This document shows positions 7,718 to 23,975 of a stretch of 44,981 nucleotides of DNA, one piece after another. A model generated the notes under the pieces. The model was not told the DNA's origin, did no database searches, and was given only the letters and a program-made list of their open reading frames with translations. Origin of the DNA: a virus. Within the stretch, counting starts at the first letter, position 1. Each line of letters begins with the position of its first letter. Location: IMG/VR virus record IMGVR_UViG_3300037293_000319, positions 1 through 44,981 of that record. The stretch is one strand, 5' to 3'. The position numbers were made by a program, and so were the translations under genes.

Positions 7718-7938
7718 TGCTGGATTCCTTTCAGCGTTGCCATGGTGTGAACCAGGGCGATGTCCGCGCTGGCGATGTCGACGGCGGTGTCGATCGATGG
7801 GGCGTCTTCGTAGGCAAGGCGGGCCAGGGTGGCGTCGATGGACGCCACCAGGAGCTTCTTTTGGTCTGCGTCTGGCAGGCCCTCGGCGACGCCCAAGGCG
7901 TCGCGCAGGGGCATGGGATGGTCTGGCACGTTGCTCAT
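7714..7938 (-). CDS. hypothetical protein between exonuclease and RecT, 74 aa
   Basis: A small acidic helical protein (MSNVPDHPMPLRDALGVAEGLPDADQKKLLVASID...). The ATG at 7938 overlaps the exonuclease stop, and its own stop overlaps the RecT start. It is therefore embedded in the recombination operon and expressed with it. No domain recognised; a helper or inhibitor role in recombination is possible but unproven. Confidence 0.65.
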   Translation of the reverse strand: MSNVPDHPMPLRDALGVAEGLPDADQKKLLVASIDATLARLAYEDAPSIDTAVDIASADIALVHTMATLKGIQQ

Positions 7939-8915
7939 GCTGCTTGCTCCATCGCGGCCGCGGCCGCGGTGAGGCGCAGCGAACGGCGGCCGTTTTTGTC
8001 GGCTTTCCAAGACACCTTCGATTGGTCTGGCAAGATGGCGAGCTCACACTCACGCATGACGTCCATCACCTCTGCCTTTGCAGTCTCTTCAACCGAAGCT
8101 GCAGCTTTTTTTTCTTCGGCGGCATCGGTTGCCCGTGCGATTGCGTCCATCAGCTGACCGTGATTGGCAGGATCGATCGAGGCGCGCGGGTCGGGCCGTG
8201 CGTAGAGACGCTTTATGGTCTCGGCGTCGCGCTCGTAGTCTGCGCCTGGCTGGCGGCCTTCGGAAACGTCTTCCCAAAACTGTTGGATCCTGGCTTCGAT
8301 TTTGCGACCGATGGATTCGTTGCGCATACGCACGATCATTCGCAGATCGTTGCCGGCGATCAGCACCAATATGACGCCCCACGCCGCGCCAGATTGGAGC
8401 ATCTGGTGCTGCAACTGGAGCTCGATGTGAGCGGGTGCTTGTATGTCATCCGCGTTGTCGGCGTTCCATTTGCGGTCCACGTAGCCCGCTTTGAATGTGC
8501 CGTGGAACACCCTGAAATCGACGCATTTGATTTCGAGCGGTATGCGCCCATCCATCGAACCTGGCGCGTTCATCCACTCCGTAACCTGCCAGTCGTATGA
8601 AGAGCCCGTTTTGAGTTTGGGGTTTTCGAGGTAGTCTTTGAAGGGCTTGGCTTTAAAACCAAACTTTTCCTGCGCCCAAGCGGCTATAGCGGGCTCCAAA
8701 AACTGGCCGCCGATGGTGCGGTCGTTAGGCGTGAAACTGTCTTCGATCTGTCCGGTTTTCAGCGCGAACAGTTCAAGCGGCGTCATGTATGGTGAGAGCC
8801 CAAACAGGGCGCCAACCTCGCTTGAGTTGATGTTGCGGGCCCGTGTTGCGAGCCATTTTTCGCGATTGCGTTCCAGCGCCAATCCGCGCCGTGTCTTGAC
8901 TGTTTTCCGTGCCAT
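7935..8915 (-). CDS. YqaJ-type (lambda exonuclease family) recombination exonuclease
   Basis: A 326-aa nuclease of the PD-(D/E)XK superfamily. Landmarks are SSEVGALFGLSPYMTPLELF (31-50), the helix GQFLEPAIAAW with Glu74, and the catalytic core SMDGRIPLEIKC with Asp122, Glu128 and Lys130. It should resect double-stranded ends 5' to 3' and load the RecT partner encoded two genes downstream. The C-terminal about 80 residues are a charged helical extension. The ATG at 8915 follows AACAGGAGACGAAC. A promoter-like pair with 17-bp spacing lies 28 bp upstream. Confidence 0.9.
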   Translation of the reverse strand: MARKTVKTRRGLALERNREKWLATRARNINSSEVGALFGLSPYMTPLELFALKTGQIEDSFTPNDRTIGGQFLEPAIAAWAQEKFGFKAKPFKDYLENPKLKTGSSYDWQVTEWMNAPGSMDGRIPLEIKCVDFRVFHGTFKAGYVDRKWNADNADDIQAPAHIELQLQHQMLQSGAAWGVILVLIAGNDLRMIVRMRNESIGRKIEARIQQFWEDVSEGRQPGADYERDAETIKRLYARPDPRASIDPANHGQLMDAIARATDAAEEKKAAASVEETAKAEVMDVMRECELAILPDQSKVSWKADKNGRRSLRLTAAAAAMEQAA

Positions 8916-8942
8916 GTTCGTCTCCTGTTGTCTGCTACAAAA

Positions 8943-8971
8943 CAGATAGGTCCCGGTGCATAACGTCGCAA
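8943..8971 (-). promoter_or_regulatory. candidate promoter of the exonuclease-RecT operon
   Basis: On the minus strand TTGCGA (8971-8966), 17-bp spacer, TATCTG (8948-8943) inside GGACCTATCT. The distance from the -10 motif to ATG (28 nt) equals that of the promoter at 15077-15105, and both leaders end in a nearly identical ACAGGAG(A/G)CGAAC. Confidence 0.6.
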
Positions 8972-9162
8972 ACAAACGGCGTTACAAAACACAAGTTGAC
9001 CGATTTTCTTCAGAGGGAAATTTTCGGCGCGTTTTTTCTTGCGGGCTTTCGGGTTCGCGGTAGTGCGCCGTTATGGCTGCAACATTGCCCCTCCCGCGCG
9101 TAGCGGGCTGTGTCTGCGGGCCCCATCTGATCCAGCAGGAGCCGCTTGGGAGGGAACGATCG

Positions 9163-9739: not shown

Positions 9740-10876
9740 ATGGGACATGCTTATTACAACGAATGGGACGCAGGTGCCGCAGAATGGCTGCGAGAGCTCA
9801 TCAAGGCGGGGCACATCGCGCCTGGCGAGGTCGATCAGCGATCCATCGCAGATGTCGATGCTGCCGATCTTCGATGCTTTACGCAATGCCACTTCTTCGC
9901 AGGCATCGGCGGATGGAGCCACGCCCTGCGCCTCGCAGGATGGCCAGACGACAAGCCGGTTTGGACCGGAAGCCCTCCATGCCAGCCCTTCAGTGCAGCA
10001 GGAAAACGCCTCGGAAAAGACGACGAACGACACCTCGCTCCGGTCTGGCTCGATCTCGTCTTACAGTGCCGCCCTCGAATCCTCTTTGGTGAACAGGTTG
10101 CAGATGCGATCCGAGTCGGTTGGCTCGACGATTTACAAGACCGGCTCGAAGCCGGCGGCTACGCCTGCGGGTCGGCCGTTCTTACAGCTGCAAGCTTCGG
10201 CGCCCCGCACATCCGGAAAAGGCTGTATTTTGGAGGGGTCCGGGTGGGTGACACCAACAACGCGGGACTGGAAGGACAGCGGGGCGGACATCAGGCCGAG
10301 AGCGGATGGGAAGCAGCGGTTCGACCAGTTGCCACGGCAAGCCAACCTTGCGGTATGGCCAACGCCGACCGCATCGAAAACATCGCCACAGACTCGAGAG
10401 GATTTTACACCGAATCTTGCTGCTCGGGCGATGCTGACCGGGTGGCCGACGCCACAGGCATCGGACGGTACGGGCGGCGGGCAGGCGAAGAGGGCGCTGA
10501 ACCCGGCGCGCAGCAACGACCTGATGGATTTTGCAATGCTCGGAGGCTGGCCGACAGCACGAGCGACCGACGGGGACAAAAACGTTCGGACACTGGAGGG
10601 TGCGGTGTCGGAAATCGATCGCAAGGGCAGTCCGCAAGATATGGCGCAGGCGGCGGCGATTGCGGGACCAGCGCGGCTAACGGCTTCTGGGGAAATCCTG
10701 ACTGGCTACACTGCCGGGATGGAAAGTGGCGGCCAGTTGAATCCGGCACACAGCCGCTGGCTCATGGGGTTTCCGGCAGAGTGGGACTTCTGCGGGGCTA
10801 TGGCAATGCAATCGTCCCGCAAGTTGCGCAAGCGTTCATTGAAAGCTTTAGAGACGCTGCGGGTCAACTGAACTGA
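9740..10876 (+). CDS. phage-type DNA (cytosine-5-)-methyltransferase
   Basis: A 378-aa C5 methylase. It carries motif I (FFAGIGGWSHALRLAGW, 52-68), motif IV with the catalytic cysteine (TGSPPCQPFSAAGK, Cys81), a motif VI variant EQV (118-120) instead of ENV, motif VIII (GAPHIRKRLYF, 154-164), and a terminal motif X (RGYGNAIVPQVAQAFI). The middle (about 165-345) is a Gly/Arg/Asp-rich target-recognition region made of VADAT/LADSTS/MANAD-like units. It could shield phage DNA from restriction, possibly including that by the resident unit at 1749-3894. A second frame (+1) over most of the recognition region also reads like protein; see the separate entry. Confidence 0.9.
   Translation: MGHAYYNEWDAGAAEWLRELIKAGHIAPGEVDQRSIADVDAADLRCFTQCHFFAGIGGWSHALRLAGWPDDKPVWTGSPPCQPFSAAGKRLGKDDERHLAPVWLDLVLQCRPRILFGEQVADAIRVGWLDDLQDRLEAGGYACGSAVLTAASFGAPHIRKRLYFGGVRVGDTNNAGLEGQRGGHQAESGWEAAVRPVATASQPCGMANADRIENIATDSRGFYTESCCSGDADRVADATGIGRYGRRAGEEGAEPGAQQRPDGFCNARRLADSTSDRRGQKRSDTGGCGVGNRSQGQSARYGAGGGDCGTSAANGFWGNPDWLHCRDGKWRPVESGTQPLAHGVSGRVGLLRGYGNAIVPQVAQAFIESFRDAAGQLN
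10233..10871 (+). other. alternative +1 reading frame with protein-like content over the methylase
   Basis: The frame one base downstream of the methylase is open from 9639 to 10871. From about 10233 it reads GWVTPTTRDWKDSG, WPTPTASKTSPQTRED, GWPTPQASDG, GWPTARATDG and QLNPAHSRWLMGFPAEWD. The repeated (G)W(P)TP units and the HSRWLMGFP ending are what I recall from C-terminal parts of other phage C5 methylases. Both frames are therefore recognisable, which suggests dual coding, frameshifting, or alternative descent from relatives using either frame. The N-terminal part of this frame (before about 10230) does not look like a real protein. Confidence 0.4.
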
Positions 10877-10890
10877 GATTGGCGGCAGAT

Positions 10891-10901
10891 GGGACGCATA
10901 T
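10891..10901 (+). repeat. GGGACGCATAT element, copy 1
   Basis: Directly ahead of the helicase start codon (first base of motif 18 nt before ATG), followed by CCGGGGC. GGA and TCC can pair around CGCATA. Confidence 0.85.
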
Positions 10902-10908
10902 CCGGGGC

Positions 10909-12384
10909 ATGATACAGCTCCGGCCATACCAGTCCCGCGGCATCGCCGACATCCGCGCAGCGTTCCGCACGGCGCGCCGAGTCCTTGGTGTTTTCCCGAC
11001 CGGTGCGGGCAAAACCACTATCATTGCTTCCATCGTCCAGGACACGCTGGCACGTGGCTCCCGCGTCGTCATCATGGCCCACCGCGAGGAGCTCATCACC
11101 CAGATCCGCGACCGGCTGGCCCTGTTCGGCATAGTCGCCGCGATAATAAAAGCGGGCCACCCAGAGGATCCAAACAATCCCGTCCAGGTGGCGTCGGTCC
11201 AGTCGCTGGCCGGTCGTCTTGACCGGCACAACGCGCCCGATCTGCTCATAGTCGACGAAGCCCACCACACCCTTGCCGCCACGTATCGGTCCATCCTCGA
11301 TGCTTGGTCCAAGTCCCGTGTCCTGGGTCTCACAGCCACCCCCTGGCGCCTGGACGGGCGCGGCCTGGGTGAAGTGTTCGAGTCGATGGTCCAAGGCCCC
11401 ACGGTCGCCGAGCTCATCGAACAAGGCCACCTGGTGCGCGCACGGGTCCTTGGTTCGACGCGGGGCCTGGACCTGTCCGACGTAGCGACGCGGGGCGGGG
11501 ATTTCGACATCGAAGCCTTGGAGAAAGCCATCGCCCGCGCTGGCCTCGACGGCGACGCGGTGCGGACGTTCAAGACTCACTTCCCCACCAGCGGCACGGC
11601 CGTGGCGTTCTGCGTGTCAGTGAAGCACGCGGAGCGCGTGGCGGCCGCGTTCAACGATGCAGGTATCCCAGCGGCTGTGCTGACGGGTGCGGACAAGGAG
11701 GCCCATCGCAAGCGCGTCTTGGAGGACCTGGCTGCTGGCAGGATCCGGGTGCTGTGTTCGGTGGACGTCATCAGTGAGGGGTTTGACCTGCCGGCCATCT
11801 CCGCCGTCATCCTTTTGCGACCCACCAAAAGCCTGTCCCTGTTCCTTCAACAAGTCGGCCGGGCCCTGCGGCCGGCGCCTGGCAAACTGTTTGCGTGGGT
11901 ATTCGATCACGCCGGCAACTCGCTGCGACACGGGCACCCGGAGTCGTTCAGGGACTGGACGCTGGACGCCGAGCAACCGGCCAAACGCGCACTCACGCAG
12001 ACCGAGGATGGCATGGCGCTCACAGTGCGCCAATGCCTGTCGTGCTACGCTATCCACGCGACGGCCCCAGTGTGCCCGTTTTGCGGCACAGAGCACCCGG
12101 TTGACGACAGGATCCCCCGTTGGCGGGCGGTGGAGCTACGAGAGCTCGAACGTGCGGAATTGGAAGCGACCGACGAAGCCAAACGTAAGGCCGAGCGCAA
12201 AGCACAGGGTGGGGCGCGGACCGTGGAGCAACTGACGGCGCTATTCATGCGGCAGGGGGCCAACAGGTGGAAGGCCCAGGCGCGGGCGAAGAAAGTGGTT
12301 GAGGCGCGGGAAGCGAAGGAACGGGCGGAACGGGAAACGCCGCTCTTGCCGGGGGCGGCGGAGTGGTTGGAGGGGATGTTGTAG
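10909..12384 (+). CDS. DEAH-box superfamily 2 helicase with zinc ribbon
   Basis: A 491-aa helicase. It has a Q-like RPYQ, Walker A PTGAGKTT (30-37), motif Ia AHREEL, motif II DEAH (116-119), motif III TATP (142-145), motif V SEGFDLP (289-295) and motif VI QVGRALRP (315-322). A four-cysteine ribbon follows (CLSC at 376-379 and CPFC at 389-392), then a charged helical tail. The family includes DNA-unwinding helicases of phage replication and repair modules. I chose the ATG at 10909 because MIQLRPYQ is the usual start of the fold; an in-frame ATG at 10879 would put the GGGACGCATAT element inside the gene. Confidence 0.9.
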   Translation: MIQLRPYQSRGIADIRAAFRTARRVLGVFPTGAGKTTIIASIVQDTLARGSRVVIMAHREELITQIRDRLALFGIVAAIIKAGHPEDPNNPVQVASVQSLAGRLDRHNAPDLLIVDEAHHTLAATYRSILDAWSKSRVLGLTATPWRLDGRGLGEVFESMVQGPTVAELIEQGHLVRARVLGSTRGLDLSDVATRGGDFDIEALEKAIARAGLDGDAVRTFKTHFPTSGTAVAFCVSVKHAERVAAAFNDAGIPAAVLTGADKEAHRKRVLEDLAAGRIRVLCSVDVISEGFDLPAISAVILLRPTKSLSLFLQQVGRALRPAPGKLFAWVFDHAGNSLRHGHPESFRDWTLDAEQPAKRALTQTEDGMALTVRQCLSCYAIHATAPVCPFCGTEHPVDDRIPRWRAVELRELERAELEATDEAKRKAERKAQGGARTVEQLTALFMRQGANRWKAQARAKKVVEAREAKERAERETPLLPGAAEWLEGML

Positions 12385-19356: not shown

Positions 19357-19962
19357 GTGACCGCAACACAAAACCCAACAAATCCTGCCGCTTGCTCGCT
19401 TGCAGAGGCGGAGCGCTGGCTGGGCGTGTCTCGCCAAACCCTCGCAAAATGGATCGACCGAGGTGCGCCAGTTGTTAAGCGGGCCCAGGGAAAAGGCCAG
19501 TCCACGCTCGTGTCCGTGTCCGATCTGTGGAAGTGGAAGATGGAGCAAGAGGTCGAGGTTGCTGTCGCCAAAGCGCGCGCTGAGGTAGATGCACAATTCG
19601 ATCCTACCAACCCCGAACGCATGAGTAAGGAAGAGGCAGACCGTCGGTTCGCGGTCGCCCGTGCCTTGCGCGAAGAAGGGAAGGCCCTGGAAGAGTTTAA
19701 GCAGATCGCTCGCATTGATGACATGGCCGGTGCCGTGGCTCGCAGGCTTTCGAGCGTCCGGCAGATCCTGATGTCGCTCTACCGGGAAGCGCCCGAGCTG
19801 CTGATGCGCAAGACCGGTATCGCCGTCAACGTCTCCACCCCGATCCTCCGCGGCATATTGGACCGCGCACTGAAAGAGATGAACGCGCGCTTGGACTTCG
19901 GCCCGCCAGAGAACAAGGACATCGAGCAAACCGATGCTGACGCTTCCACTCAGTCGACTTGA
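19357..19962 (+). CDS. terminase small subunit (Nu1-like)
   Basis: A 201-aa protein with an N-terminal winged-helix DNA-binding module (CSLAEAERWLGVSRQTLAKWIDRGAPVVKRAQGKGQSTLVSVSDLWKW, about 13-57) as in lambda gpNu1, then a helical charged region. It recognises the packaging site and recruits the large subunit. The start is GTG, preceded by AGAGGAACGC. The 3' end overlaps the large terminase start by 29 bp, as expected for a coupled pair. Confidence 0.85.
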   Translation: MTATQNPTNPAACSLAEAERWLGVSRQTLAKWIDRGAPVVKRAQGKGQSTLVSVSDLWKWKMEQEVEVAVAKARAEVDAQFDPTNPERMSKEEADRRFAVARALREEGKALEEFKQIARIDDMAGAVARRLSSVRQILMSLYREAPELLMRKTGIAVNVSTPILRGILDRALKEMNARLDFGPPENKDIEQTDADASTQST

Positions 19963-22033
19963 TGAGCTTGAACGCGATCCGTTCTCCATCTCCCGCGCAT
20001 CTATCGATGCCGCGCTAGACCGTGCAGTCCATGAGAGTCTGGCCCCCATCCCATGGATGAACGGCCGGGAGTGGATCGAGGAGCACGCCGACCACTCATT
20101 CGAGACGTCCAACCGCCAAGGCAAGTTCGAGATGTTTCCGTTCCAGCGTGACCTTGTCGAGATCGCCACCGACCCCGAATGGTCGGAGATCGTGTTTATG
20201 AAGTCGGCACGTGTGGGCTATACCCAGCTGTCTACATACCTGATGGGCTACTACATCCAACACGACCCCAGCAAAGTCGCCTTCATACTGCCCACTAAAG
20301 ACAACGTCGGGGACTACGCCAAAGACAGCCTCAACCCAATGCTGCGTGACATCGAATGCGTGTCCAAACTGCGCGGCGGCGTCTCAATGGACGACAAGCT
20401 GAACCGGTATTTTTCCAACGGCTCTGTGCTCTACCTGCGATCCGCGTTCTCCTCGGACGAACTGCGTCGGATCACCGCCGGTGTCCTATTCCTTGACGAG
20501 ATCGACGCCGACGGATGGGCGGCCAGCGGTCAGGGCGACAAGGTGGACTTGGCAAAGAAGCGTGCAGAGACCGTGTCCGGCTCGCGTGTCTTTCTTGGAT
20601 CCTCCCCTACCGTCAAAGGCGGAAGTCGCATCGAAGCAGCCTTTCTCTTGGGAACCCAACACCGCCGCTTCGTGCCGTGCCCGATCTGCACGCAGCGCGA
20701 CAATCCCGACCTATGGTCCGAGGCCGGCGAGTGGCCGGTCTTTGGTGAACTTCTGCGCGGAAACGGCGTCGTGTTCAGCGGCCACCAGGTCTTGGAGTGG
20801 GGCGACGGCGAGACGCATGGAATCCACTACAAGACCGACCCGGAAAACCCGACATACGTTTGCCGTCACTGCCAGGGCCACATCGAACACAACCTCAAAG
20901 GCTGGATGGACGAATACGGCGAGTGGCGCGCGACGAACTACAACGAAGACGGCAAGCCCGCTTGGAAGAAAGGTGTCCTTTCGTTCCACATTTCCACCCT
21001 GTATAGCCAATTTGAAAAGGCCAGCTGGGCGCACGCCGTTGCCGCTTGGAAGGACTGCGAGGGAGATCCAGAAAAGCGGCAAGCGTTCGAGAATACATGG
21101 CTCGGGCGCACTTTCGAAGACTGGTCCGCCGCCGGGAAAATGTTGGAACCGCACGAGCTCCAAGCCAGCCACTGCGTCGAATATGGCGCCGAGGTCCCAG
21201 CCTGGGTCCGATTCCTGACTGCCGGCGTTGACATGCAAAGCAAAGATGGCGGACGCTTTGAAGTCAAGATACTTGGATGGGGTGCCGGACAGCGAAAGGC
21301 CGTCGTCGCACATTACATCCTGGATGAGCACCCGTTGGCAGATGAAACGGCATGGGTCGGCCTGCGAGACACACTACTGCGTCAGTATAAAACCATGGAC
21401 GGTAGGCGCCTGATAGTTGCTGGTGCCGCTCTGGACTCCGGATCGAACAACGGCGAATTTACACAGCGCATGTATCAATTCGGCGCAGAGAACGCAGACC
21501 GGTGCTGGTGGGCTATCAAAGGGCACGGAACGAAGGGTCGCGGCGTGCGCGGTGATCAGATCTGGCCAAAGGCGATCTCTCCAAACGGGCGCGTGTATCT
21601 TATCGACGTAGACATCGCAAAGGACCAAACATTCCGGCAGCTCTACGCAGAAGCGGATAGCTCGGGCGGGATCTCCTTTCCCGGGGGTGCGGTGCCTGCT
21701 GGCTCGGTTCCGTTCGACAAAACGTATTTCGAGCGCCTGACGCGCGAGAAGCCGCTGCCTGTGAAAGGGCAGCCTGGAAAAACGTTTTGGTCGTCTCCTA
21801 AAGATCAGGAGCCATGGGACTGCCTTATCTATTGCGTGGCCGCAATGTATGGCCTGCTCCAAGCCTACCCCCGCCGCTACGATCCCCTGGTGGCATCGCC
21901 CCCGCGCCCGATCGTCCGGCCTGGTGCGCCAGCGTCCGCGCCAAAGCCAGGCGCTCCGCCGGCCCCTGCCCCCGCAAAATACGTGCCAAAGCCGCGCCCC
22001 GTCGCAACAACGCCTTCATGGATGCGCCGGTAA
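19934..22033 (+). CDS. terminase large subunit (lambda gpA family)
   Basis: A 699-aa DNA-packaging motor of the gpA family. The N-terminal ATPase has a Walker A-like KSARVGYTQ (90-98), VLFLDEID as Walker B (184-191) and GSSPTVKG as coupling motif. Two zinc-binding pairs (CPIC and CRHC) follow, as in gpA. The nuclease begins around GVDMQSKDGGRFEVKILGWG with the first Asp. It makes staggered cuts at cos and pumps DNA into the prohead. A Pro/Ala-rich tail (about 650-699) ends the protein. Confidence 0.95.
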   Translation: MLTLPLSRLDELERDPFSISRASIDAALDRAVHESLAPIPWMNGREWIEEHADHSFETSNRQGKFEMFPFQRDLVEIATDPEWSEIVFMKSARVGYTQLSTYLMGYYIQHDPSKVAFILPTKDNVGDYAKDSLNPMLRDIECVSKLRGGVSMDDKLNRYFSNGSVLYLRSAFSSDELRRITAGVLFLDEIDADGWAASGQGDKVDLAKKRAETVSGSRVFLGSSPTVKGGSRIEAAFLLGTQHRRFVPCPICTQRDNPDLWSEAGEWPVFGELLRGNGVVFSGHQVLEWGDGETHGIHYKTDPENPTYVCRHCQGHIEHNLKGWMDEYGEWRATNYNEDGKPAWKKGVLSFHISTLYSQFEKASWAHAVAAWKDCEGDPEKRQAFENTWLGRTFEDWSAAGKMLEPHELQASHCVEYGAEVPAWVRFLTAGVDMQSKDGGRFEVKILGWGAGQRKAVVAHYILDEHPLADETAWVGLRDTLLRQYKTMDGRRLIVAGAALDSGSNNGEFTQRMYQFGAENADRCWWAIKGHGTKGRGVRGDQIWPKAISPNGRVYLIDVDIAKDQTFRQLYAEADSSGGISFPGGAVPAGSVPFDKTYFERLTREKPLPVKGQPGKTFWSSPKDQEPWDCLIYCVAAMYGLLQAYPRRYDPLVASPPRPIVRPGAPASAPKPGAPPAPAPAKYVPKPRPVATTPSWMRR

Positions 22034-22081: not shown

Positions 22082-22339
22082 ATGGCCCTGCGCTTCTCTT
22101 CCCTTTCCGATGCCCAGCTTGGCGAGATGCTAACTTCTTTGGTTCAGCAGATCGCGTCTGGTGTGGCGTCCGTTTCCATCAACGGCATCACAACCACGTA
22201 TTCCACGCCTGGGAACATCCGAACCGCGATCGACGAGATAGAGGCCGAGTTGGCCGACCGCGCCCTGGCTTCCGCAAAGCTGCCGCGCCGTGCCGCGATG
22301 GTCATGCAATACCCCTCGATGGGCGGCAAAGGATACTGA
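22082..22339 (+). CDS. gpW-like head-tail joining protein
   Basis: An 85-aa protein between large terminase and portal, the exact position of gpW in lambda. The sequence LSDAQLGEMLTSLVQQIASGVASVSINGITTTYSTPGNIRTAIDEIEAELADRA matches the gpW alpha/beta fold pattern. It is added to the DNA-filled head to make the connector ready for tail attachment. A GAGGAT ribosome-binding site lies upstream. Confidence 0.85.
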   Translation: MALRFSSLSDAQLGEMLTSLVQQIASGVASVSINGITTTYSTPGNIRTAIDEIEAELADRALASAKLPRRAAMVMQYPSMGGKGY

Positions 22340-22340
22340 C

Positions 22341-23975
22341 ATGCCAAAGAACAAAAAGCCCGTCGCCCGCACCTCTGTCACGCCCTCCGTCGCACAGACA
22401 GTTAAGCCCCGCGTCCGCGTAACCACGGCCGGCTACACCCGGCACGTCCTGCCAAATCCACCTACTGAGTTCCGGGCTTCTGTCTACGAGGCCGCCGGCG
22501 CTGGACCACGTTCCTCATCCTGGCAACAGGCCGGGTCGTCCGGCCCAATCGGCGTGTTGTCGCGGTCTTTAGATACGCTGCGCAACCGAGTGCGATACCA
22601 AGTCCGCAACGACCCTATGGCGTCGCGTGTGGTTGATTTTCTGGAAGGATCTACGGTTGGAAACGGCCTGCGTCCTATGCTGCGTGCTGGATTCGCCGAT
22701 CCAAAATTCCTCGCGGCGCAAGAGGCCTTCTTTGAACAGTGCGACGCCGACGAAGTGCTTAACTTCGACGGCTTACTGCGCGTCGTGTTCCGCGAAGTCG
22801 TCGCTGGCGGAGAATGCTTCGTCCGTATGCGTGAACGTGACATGGATGCCCCAGAAAACAGGCATTTGGTTGCCCCGCTACAGCTCCAAGCAATACCAGG
22901 TGAAATGGTCCCAACGAACGACCATACCCTCGAAACTGTGTGTGGTATCAAGACCAACGGACTCGGCCGGCGCATAGCATACAAATTCTACAACAAACAC
23001 CCCGGCGAGTTCCTTATGAACAACCCGGCCGCGCCTACACTTTCGTTCGTGCCATCATCGAGTGTCTGTCACGTGTTCCGCAAGGGAGAGCCTGGCCAGA
23101 TTCGCGGGGAGCCGTGGCTGGTGCGCGGCCTGATCGCGCTTCATGACCTCGACGCATACCAAGACGCCGAGCTGGTCCGCAAGAAAATGGCTGCGATGCC
23201 GGTATTTTTCATAGAGACCCCGACGGATCTCAATAAGCAGCCGGGCCCCGCCGGTGTTTCGGATGGAACAGATGGAAATCCAGAGGGAACGCCGCTCGAC
23301 ACCGAAGGCAACGTCTGGATACAGGAAGACCCGATTGCGATCATGCCCGAGTTGAAGCCCGGAGGTGTCGTCCCTGTTGCGCCTGGCTGGAAGGTGAACC
23401 CATCGATACCTGCCGACGTGGGGCCCAACTACGACGTGTTCGTGCGGCGCCAGCTCCAACGCATATGCGCTGGTGTGAACGTGCCCTATGAATTGGTTAC
23501 GGGCGACACACCGGTCGGCGCCAACGAGCGTATGATGAGGATTCGCGTCCAGGCCTACTACCAGCTTGTCCGTCAATGGCGTGCGATGCTTGTGCGTCAG
23601 TTCTGCACCCCAGTCTGGAACCGATTCATCGATGCCCTGGTATCGAACGGATGGCAGCCGACAGACGGCACAGTAGACGACTACCGTCGCGTCGAGTGGA
23701 TCGGCGACCCGGTCCCACAAACGCACCCGACGCAGGACGTCCAAGCGGACATCATGGCCGTGCGTGCTGGTTTTAAAACCCGCGCGCAAGTCATCCGCGA
23801 ACGCGGCGGCGATCCTGACCGCATGCTCGCACAGCGCGCCGCAGAATGCGCCGCATCGGATGAGTTGGGAATCTTCTTCGACTCCGACGCGCGCTTCAAT
23901 CTGTGGGAGAAAATGCCCGCACCCGACGCTGACGGCATCGCCAATGCACCGCCCAACGCATCGGGCGAGAACTGA
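22341..23975 (+). CDS. portal protein (lambda gpB family)
   Basis: A 544-aa lambda-type portal. Recognisable stretches are LSRSLDTLRNRVRYQVRNDPMASRVVDFLEGSTVGNGLRP, DFDGLLRVVFREVVAGGECFVR-like sequence, and RRQLQRICAGVNVPYELVTGD. The start at 22341 follows AAAGGATACTGAC and is two bases after the gpW stop. The ring forms the channel for DNA packaging and the docking site for terminase and tail. The C-terminus (about 500-544) is variable and acidic. Confidence 0.95.
   Translation: MPKNKKPVARTSVTPSVAQTVKPRVRVTTAGYTRHVLPNPPTEFRASVYEAAGAGPRSSSWQQAGSSGPIGVLSRSLDTLRNRVRYQVRNDPMASRVVDFLEGSTVGNGLRPMLRAGFADPKFLAAQEAFFEQCDADEVLNFDGLLRVVFREVVAGGECFVRMRERDMDAPENRHLVAPLQLQAIPGEMVPTNDHTLETVCGIKTNGLGRRIAYKFYNKHPGEFLMNNPAAPTLSFVPSSSVCHVFRKGEPGQIRGEPWLVRGLIALHDLDAYQDAELVRKKMAAMPVFFIETPTDLNKQPGPAGVSDGTDGNPEGTPLDTEGNVWIQEDPIAIMPELKPGGVVPVAPGWKVNPSIPADVGPNYDVFVRRQLQRICAGVNVPYELVTGDTPVGANERMMRIRVQAYYQLVRQWRAMLVRQFCTPVWNRFIDALVSNGWQPTDGTVDDYRRVEWIGDPVPQTHPTQDVQADIMAVRAGFKTRAQVIRERGGDPDRMLAQRAAECAASDELGIFFDSDARFNLWEKMPAPDADGIANAPPNASGEN

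Follow-up and report, generated by a model that had tools for sequence, protein, structure and literature searches.

A phage C5-cytosine methylase gene with a nested +1-frame gene, probably encoding the second subunit of a split enzyme

Results

The methylase locus and its main frame

The window, that is, the whole stretch of 44,981 nucleotides that we analysed (IMG/VR record IMGVR_UViG_3300037293_000319), is a tailed phage genome, as it carries genes for a YqaJ recombinase (7935-8975), a ResIII/DEAD helicase (10879-12384), the terminase gpA (19934-22033) and a lambda-family portal (22290-23975). The helicase gene lies directly 3' of a methylase gene at 9740-10876 (+ strand, as are the features of this locus described below). 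The main-frame product, which we call alpha, is a C5-cytosine DNA methyltransferase of 378 aa that matches the profiles PF00145 (5.6e-17) and phrog_363 (1.6e-76). Its N-terminal half looks like an ordinary C5 methylase, with motif I (FFAGIGGW, 9893-9916), motif IV with the PCQ and the catalytic Cys (GSPPCQPFS, 9968-9994), motif VI (FGEQV, 10085-10099) and the motif VIII region (GAPHIRKRLYF, 10199-10231) in order on a Rossmann-like catalytic domain. Near the end of alpha, sequence and AF2 model both place motif X (RGYGNAIVPQVAQAFI, 10793-10840), just as the first-pass annotation of this DNA had said. Nevertheless, alpha departs from the PF00145 pattern in one respect: the target-recognition domain (TRD) and motif IX do not stand in one chain with motifs I-VIII and X, and motif IX is found in the +1 frame.

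The AF2 model of alpha has a confident catalytic domain and a motif X helix, and Foldseek matched it to M.HaeIII (2.5e-8) and M.HhaI. Residues 173-320 (10256-10699), between motifs VIII and X, are predicted to be disordered (pLDDT about 40), so that alpha, as modelled, is without a folded TRD.

The nested +1-frame gene

The +1 frame over alpha is open from 9606 to a stop codon ending at 10871. We placed the start of the nested protein, beta, at the ATG at 9852, the commonest start site in the relatives, which gives a putative product of 339 aa (9852-10871); ATG 9747 and ATG 9858 are other possible starts, and we saw no clear Shine-Dalgarno sequence before any of these three candidates. Over the catalytic core of alpha, beta would form a helix and a hairpin (SAALESSLVNRL...ASAPRTS, 10065-10214), which is its best-predicted part (pLDDT 76-90 across most of residues 71-120), the AF2 model of beta alone being weak overall (pLDDT 61). 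Downstream there are W(P/V)T(P/A) units at 10245, 10356, 10443 and 10548 (10245-10559), a candidate target-recognition module, and then QLNPAHSRWLMGFPAEWD at 10734-10787, the same succession that had been read from the +1 frame at first pass. Beta thus bears a methylase motif IX (LNPAHSRWLMGFPAEWD) alongside its WPTP repeats; the identity of the motif is strongly suggested by its sequence and by a homologous segment that, in three relatives (L276, L289 and L348), shares the frame of motif X and stands 5' of it. The first-pass annotation had located the two protein-like frames at 10233-10871. They are real there, but this interval is only the second half of the overlap, whose conserved part begins at about 9852.

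Protein searches with each frame, which had been proposed as a check, led to different families. While alpha belongs with phrog_363, the +1 frame matches phrog_1008 and phrog_31772, and tblastn with this frame found 227 phage records, in 120 of which at least 80% of the query was covered. All three PHROGs are labelled 'DNA methyltransferase' and listed as separate families, and the entries, as we saw them, do not state that phrog_363 and phrog_1008/phrog_31772 come from the same gene, read in two frames. The annotation of phage K1ind1 has a gene for each frame, one for a C-specific methylase and one for an 'Mte8-like protein'. No match to beta was found in the PDB, either by sequence or by fold (Foldseek with the weak beta model), a homology search against Pfam gave nothing, and hhalign detected no relation between beta and alpha.

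Stop codons in the relatives

Related loci were gathered by a search with the +1 frame, by a search with the main frame and from bacterial genomes. Both frames were present in 245 of 245 loci, this count covering the best 80 of each search and therefore favouring near relatives, and the frame register was identical in every locus inspected. The overlap is about 280 codons long on average and occurs in hundreds of phage and prophage loci, among them those of the BASEL phages Bas70 and Bas72.

Shuffling the synonymous codons within each of 188 distinct homologous genes predicted 550 +1-frame stops over the overlap, between QCHFF and RGYGN of the main frame, and only 4 were observed; genes without any such stop numbered 184, against 8.8 expected. 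Outside the overlap the +1 stops were near expectation (381 observed and 427 expected before it, 227 and 198 after it), and over the overlap the +2 frame was near chance as well, with 2341 stops observed and 2069 expected. These numbers bear on the simplest alternative, namely that the +1 ORF arises simply from the amino acids and codons that the methylase uses, without being selected itself. A high GC content does lower the frequency of stops, and alternative ORFs are common in the window. However, the shuffles keep the composition, the other frame and the flanks behave as expected by chance, and the substitution rates and start signals given below contradict this explanation too, which is therefore hardly credible.

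Some single loci deserve mention. One internal main-frame stop occurs in L175 (2993-4109), whose +1 frame is intact, and one main-frame stop each in L030 and L032. In Komagataeibacter phage phiKX1 (L003, 1473-3129) an insert with an HNH-type ORF interrupts both frames near their C-terminal ends, and the C-terminal segment of beta resumes after the insert. Dunaliella viridis virus SI2 (L249, 1387-1803) has lost the methylase core by deletion, the remaining ends being open and in register in both frames, with a beta remnant of 104 aa. Phage pangalan (L246, 1977-2861) has a diverged copy adjoining an HNH gene, in which both frames are kept and motif IV reads SPCCQPFS. In L358 (4035-5112) motifs I-VI are in the same frame as the WPTP units and motif IX, and motifs VIII and X are in the other, owing to either a natural indel or an assembly error. 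Finally, contig C5 of the genome to which L195 belongs (G001) has three beta matches in two places, two of them at one place.

Selection on each frame

We compared 58 independent pairs. Before the overlap 67% of the differences fell on third codon positions, vs 38% inside it, where the first codon position, the wobble position of the +1 frame, had a share equal to that of the third. Divergence at fourfold main-frame sites was 0.047 in the TRD region vs 0.171 in the N-zone before the overlap.

In order to separate both frames, we made overlap-aware counts on close pairs, with w_alt = dNN/dNS and w_main = dNN/dSN; SS sites are few, which makes ratios using them weak. Outside the overlap w_alt was 0.79 before and 0.93 after, with a range of 0.79-1.25 across the close-pair estimates. 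Inside, the values were 0.64/0.44 for the catalytic core, 0.31 [0.18-0.46] for the TRD and 0.33 [0.20-0.54] for the tail. Those of w_main were 0.17 for the core, 1.00 [0.74-1.34] for the TRD and 0.53 for the tail. The TRD values mean that from 10233 up to about 10680 the constraint falls on the +1 frame, the main frame being close to neutral, although in more distant pairs this contrast is weaker (w_alt 0.75). Constraint in the main frame alone, the pattern that would speak against dual coding, is thus the reverse of what we see over the recognition domain. The DNA of alpha residues 173-320 mainly serves to code for beta. Further downstream, the conserved tail of alpha (CRDGKWRPVE, 10712-10741) is constrained in both frames according to the substitution rates.

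Therefore, purifying selection acts on both frames over the overlap, as had been conjectured at first pass, and from the stop codons and the substitution rates it is practically beyond doubt that this methylase segment is dual coding.

Start signals of the nested gene

Of the 188 genes, 181 have an alt-frame ATG 11-62 nt 5' of the Q codon (135 expected); its commonest position is -32 (128 vs 61 expected). Inside alpha, an ATG with a Shine-Dalgarno core 5-15 nt upstream was found in 152 of 188 genes vs 42.5 expected, an excess that is partly due to the use of AGG, a codon rare elsewhere, for the R of RSI. In the clade of L348, the beta ATG comes just behind in-frame stops. These sequence signals argue strongly for independent initiation of beta in the relatives, and in the window phage beta may well be initiated and translated in the same way.

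The first-pass annotation had also considered that a frameshift near 10225 yields two methylases of different specificity. In this case programmed ribosomal frameshifting near the junction of motif VIII and the TRD would join the alpha core to the +1 recognition domain. Actually, the frames are in the right register, and the main-frame core followed by the alternative TRD and motif IX comes close to the canonical motif order. However, constraint on the +1 frame extends over the whole core, far upstream of any such site, beta has a Shine-Dalgarno sequence and ATG of its own in most relatives, and the L348-clade starts behind in-frame stops point the same way. Furthermore, no slippery sequence or slippery codons at the junction are shared and no frameshift site is conserved among the relatives, and for a full enzyme to be made in the window, the ribosome would have to shift once more, back to the frame of motif X. 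Frameshifting is thus unlikely as the main route, and we consider this explanation very improbable. Beta is most likely better read as the partner that holds the missing TRD and motif IX than as part of a second methylase.

A second family and the moving motif IX

A scan for LNPxxVEWLMG gave 120 loci (121 ORFs), with WPTP-like units in 105 of the ORFs. The -1 frame was open in 87, and those that we read out code there for a different type of C5 methylase. The beta of this second family is related to that of the window (hhalign probability 99.9%, E 7e-32). When the second family was searched by the methylase frame alone, 75 loci had 24 stops in the alternative frame vs 257 expected. In one group of this family beta starts 4 nt after the start of alpha.

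We classified the motif divisions into three groups. In division A, to which the window and most loci belong, alpha has motifs I-VIII and X and beta the WPTP units and motif IX. In division B (L276 and L289, and L320 on the beta side alone, from a partial ORF), alpha has motifs I-VIII and then a stop, and beta has the WPTP units, IX and X. In division C (the L348 clade), alpha has I-VIII, IX and X, and beta the WPTP units alone. Between ENV and motif IX this clade showed 1 stop vs 89 expected, the flanks being at chance. We had tried the L348/L409 clade as a control of single-frame monomers and rejected it, since its alternative frame is constrained and a shorter nested WPTP ORF ends just 5' of the in-frame motif IX.

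Motif IX stands in alpha or in beta, and in none of 143 sequences in both. It is mainly because motif IX moves between the frames that we take alpha and beta to form one enzyme. A nested protein that is real but has a function of its own, for instance anti-restriction or regulatory, and is no methylase subunit would fit the lack of a match in the PDB and Pfam; nesting alone does not prove cooperation, and overprinted viral genes are often unrelated in function. Nevertheless, such a protein would not explain why motif IX is never in both frames, why the beta of L276 and L289 has motif X as well while their alpha ends after motif VIII, or why a folded TRD is absent from the alpha model, and we regard this possibility as rather improbable.

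Discussion

We conclude that beta is probably a methylase subunit, and that a naturally split C5-cytosine methyltransferase would have its two subunits encoded by one DNA segment. In the proposed scheme, alpha, from the main frame, would contribute motif X and the domain that binds the cofactor and carries out catalysis (motifs I-VIII), and beta, started independently inside alpha, would contribute the WPTP-repeat module and motif IX. The repeats would probably serve in target recognition, a role that we infer from sequence. Both polypeptides may assemble into the active enzyme, which would methylate the phage DNA, most likely against host restriction.

Split C5 methylases have been described before. 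M.EcoHK31I has an alpha polypeptide with motifs I-VIII and X and a small polypeptide with motif IX, and its predicted TRD was placed in alpha (PMC3404938). This two-polypeptide enzyme (YGGCCR) equals the window in its motif split, the likeness being one of motif description; the WPTP module of the window system, in contrast to that TRD, is assigned to beta. M.EcoHK31I was reported as one bacterial enzyme, whereas the arrangement described here recurs in hundreds of phage and prophage loci, where both frames are under selection. The beta gene of M.EcoHK31I is likewise nested in alpha in another frame. M.AquI (CYCGRG) also has two polypeptides, the larger with motifs I-VIII and the smaller with IX-X (PMC3404938), which is the division of L276 and L289. 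The window differs from it in that motif X belongs to alpha and the ORF of beta falls within the gene for alpha; a second subunit with IX and X was found only in L276, L289 and the partial ORF of L320. As regards the nesting, lambda Rz/Rz1 is cited as a phage gene pair of which one lies wholly within the other, its functional partner, in the +1 register (PMC4936722); it shares this arrangement with the methylase, but it codes for lysis proteins and its overlap is much shorter. No prior description of the nested phage methylase arrangement was found in the open literature searched.

A more general proposal has, in our opinion, about an even chance of being right: dual coding would be a property of a very large class of C5 methylases in viruses, with the WPTP beta as a trans-acting target-recognition subunit that is encoded in the +1 frame of the catalytic subunit it serves. 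The gain and loss of repeats, in frame for both proteins, would change the methylation target, and the overlapped part of alpha would be a passive linker.

If the split-enzyme reading is true, this case would rank, in both length and spread, among the foremost examples of dual coding in double-stranded DNA phages, and it would explain why many phage methylases seem to be without a recognition domain and motif IX, as well as why a single gene is listed in the databases as two unrelated 'DNA methyltransferase' families. In practice, optimising the codons of one frame for expression would destroy the other one. Finally, these loci would represent a natural set of split methylases.
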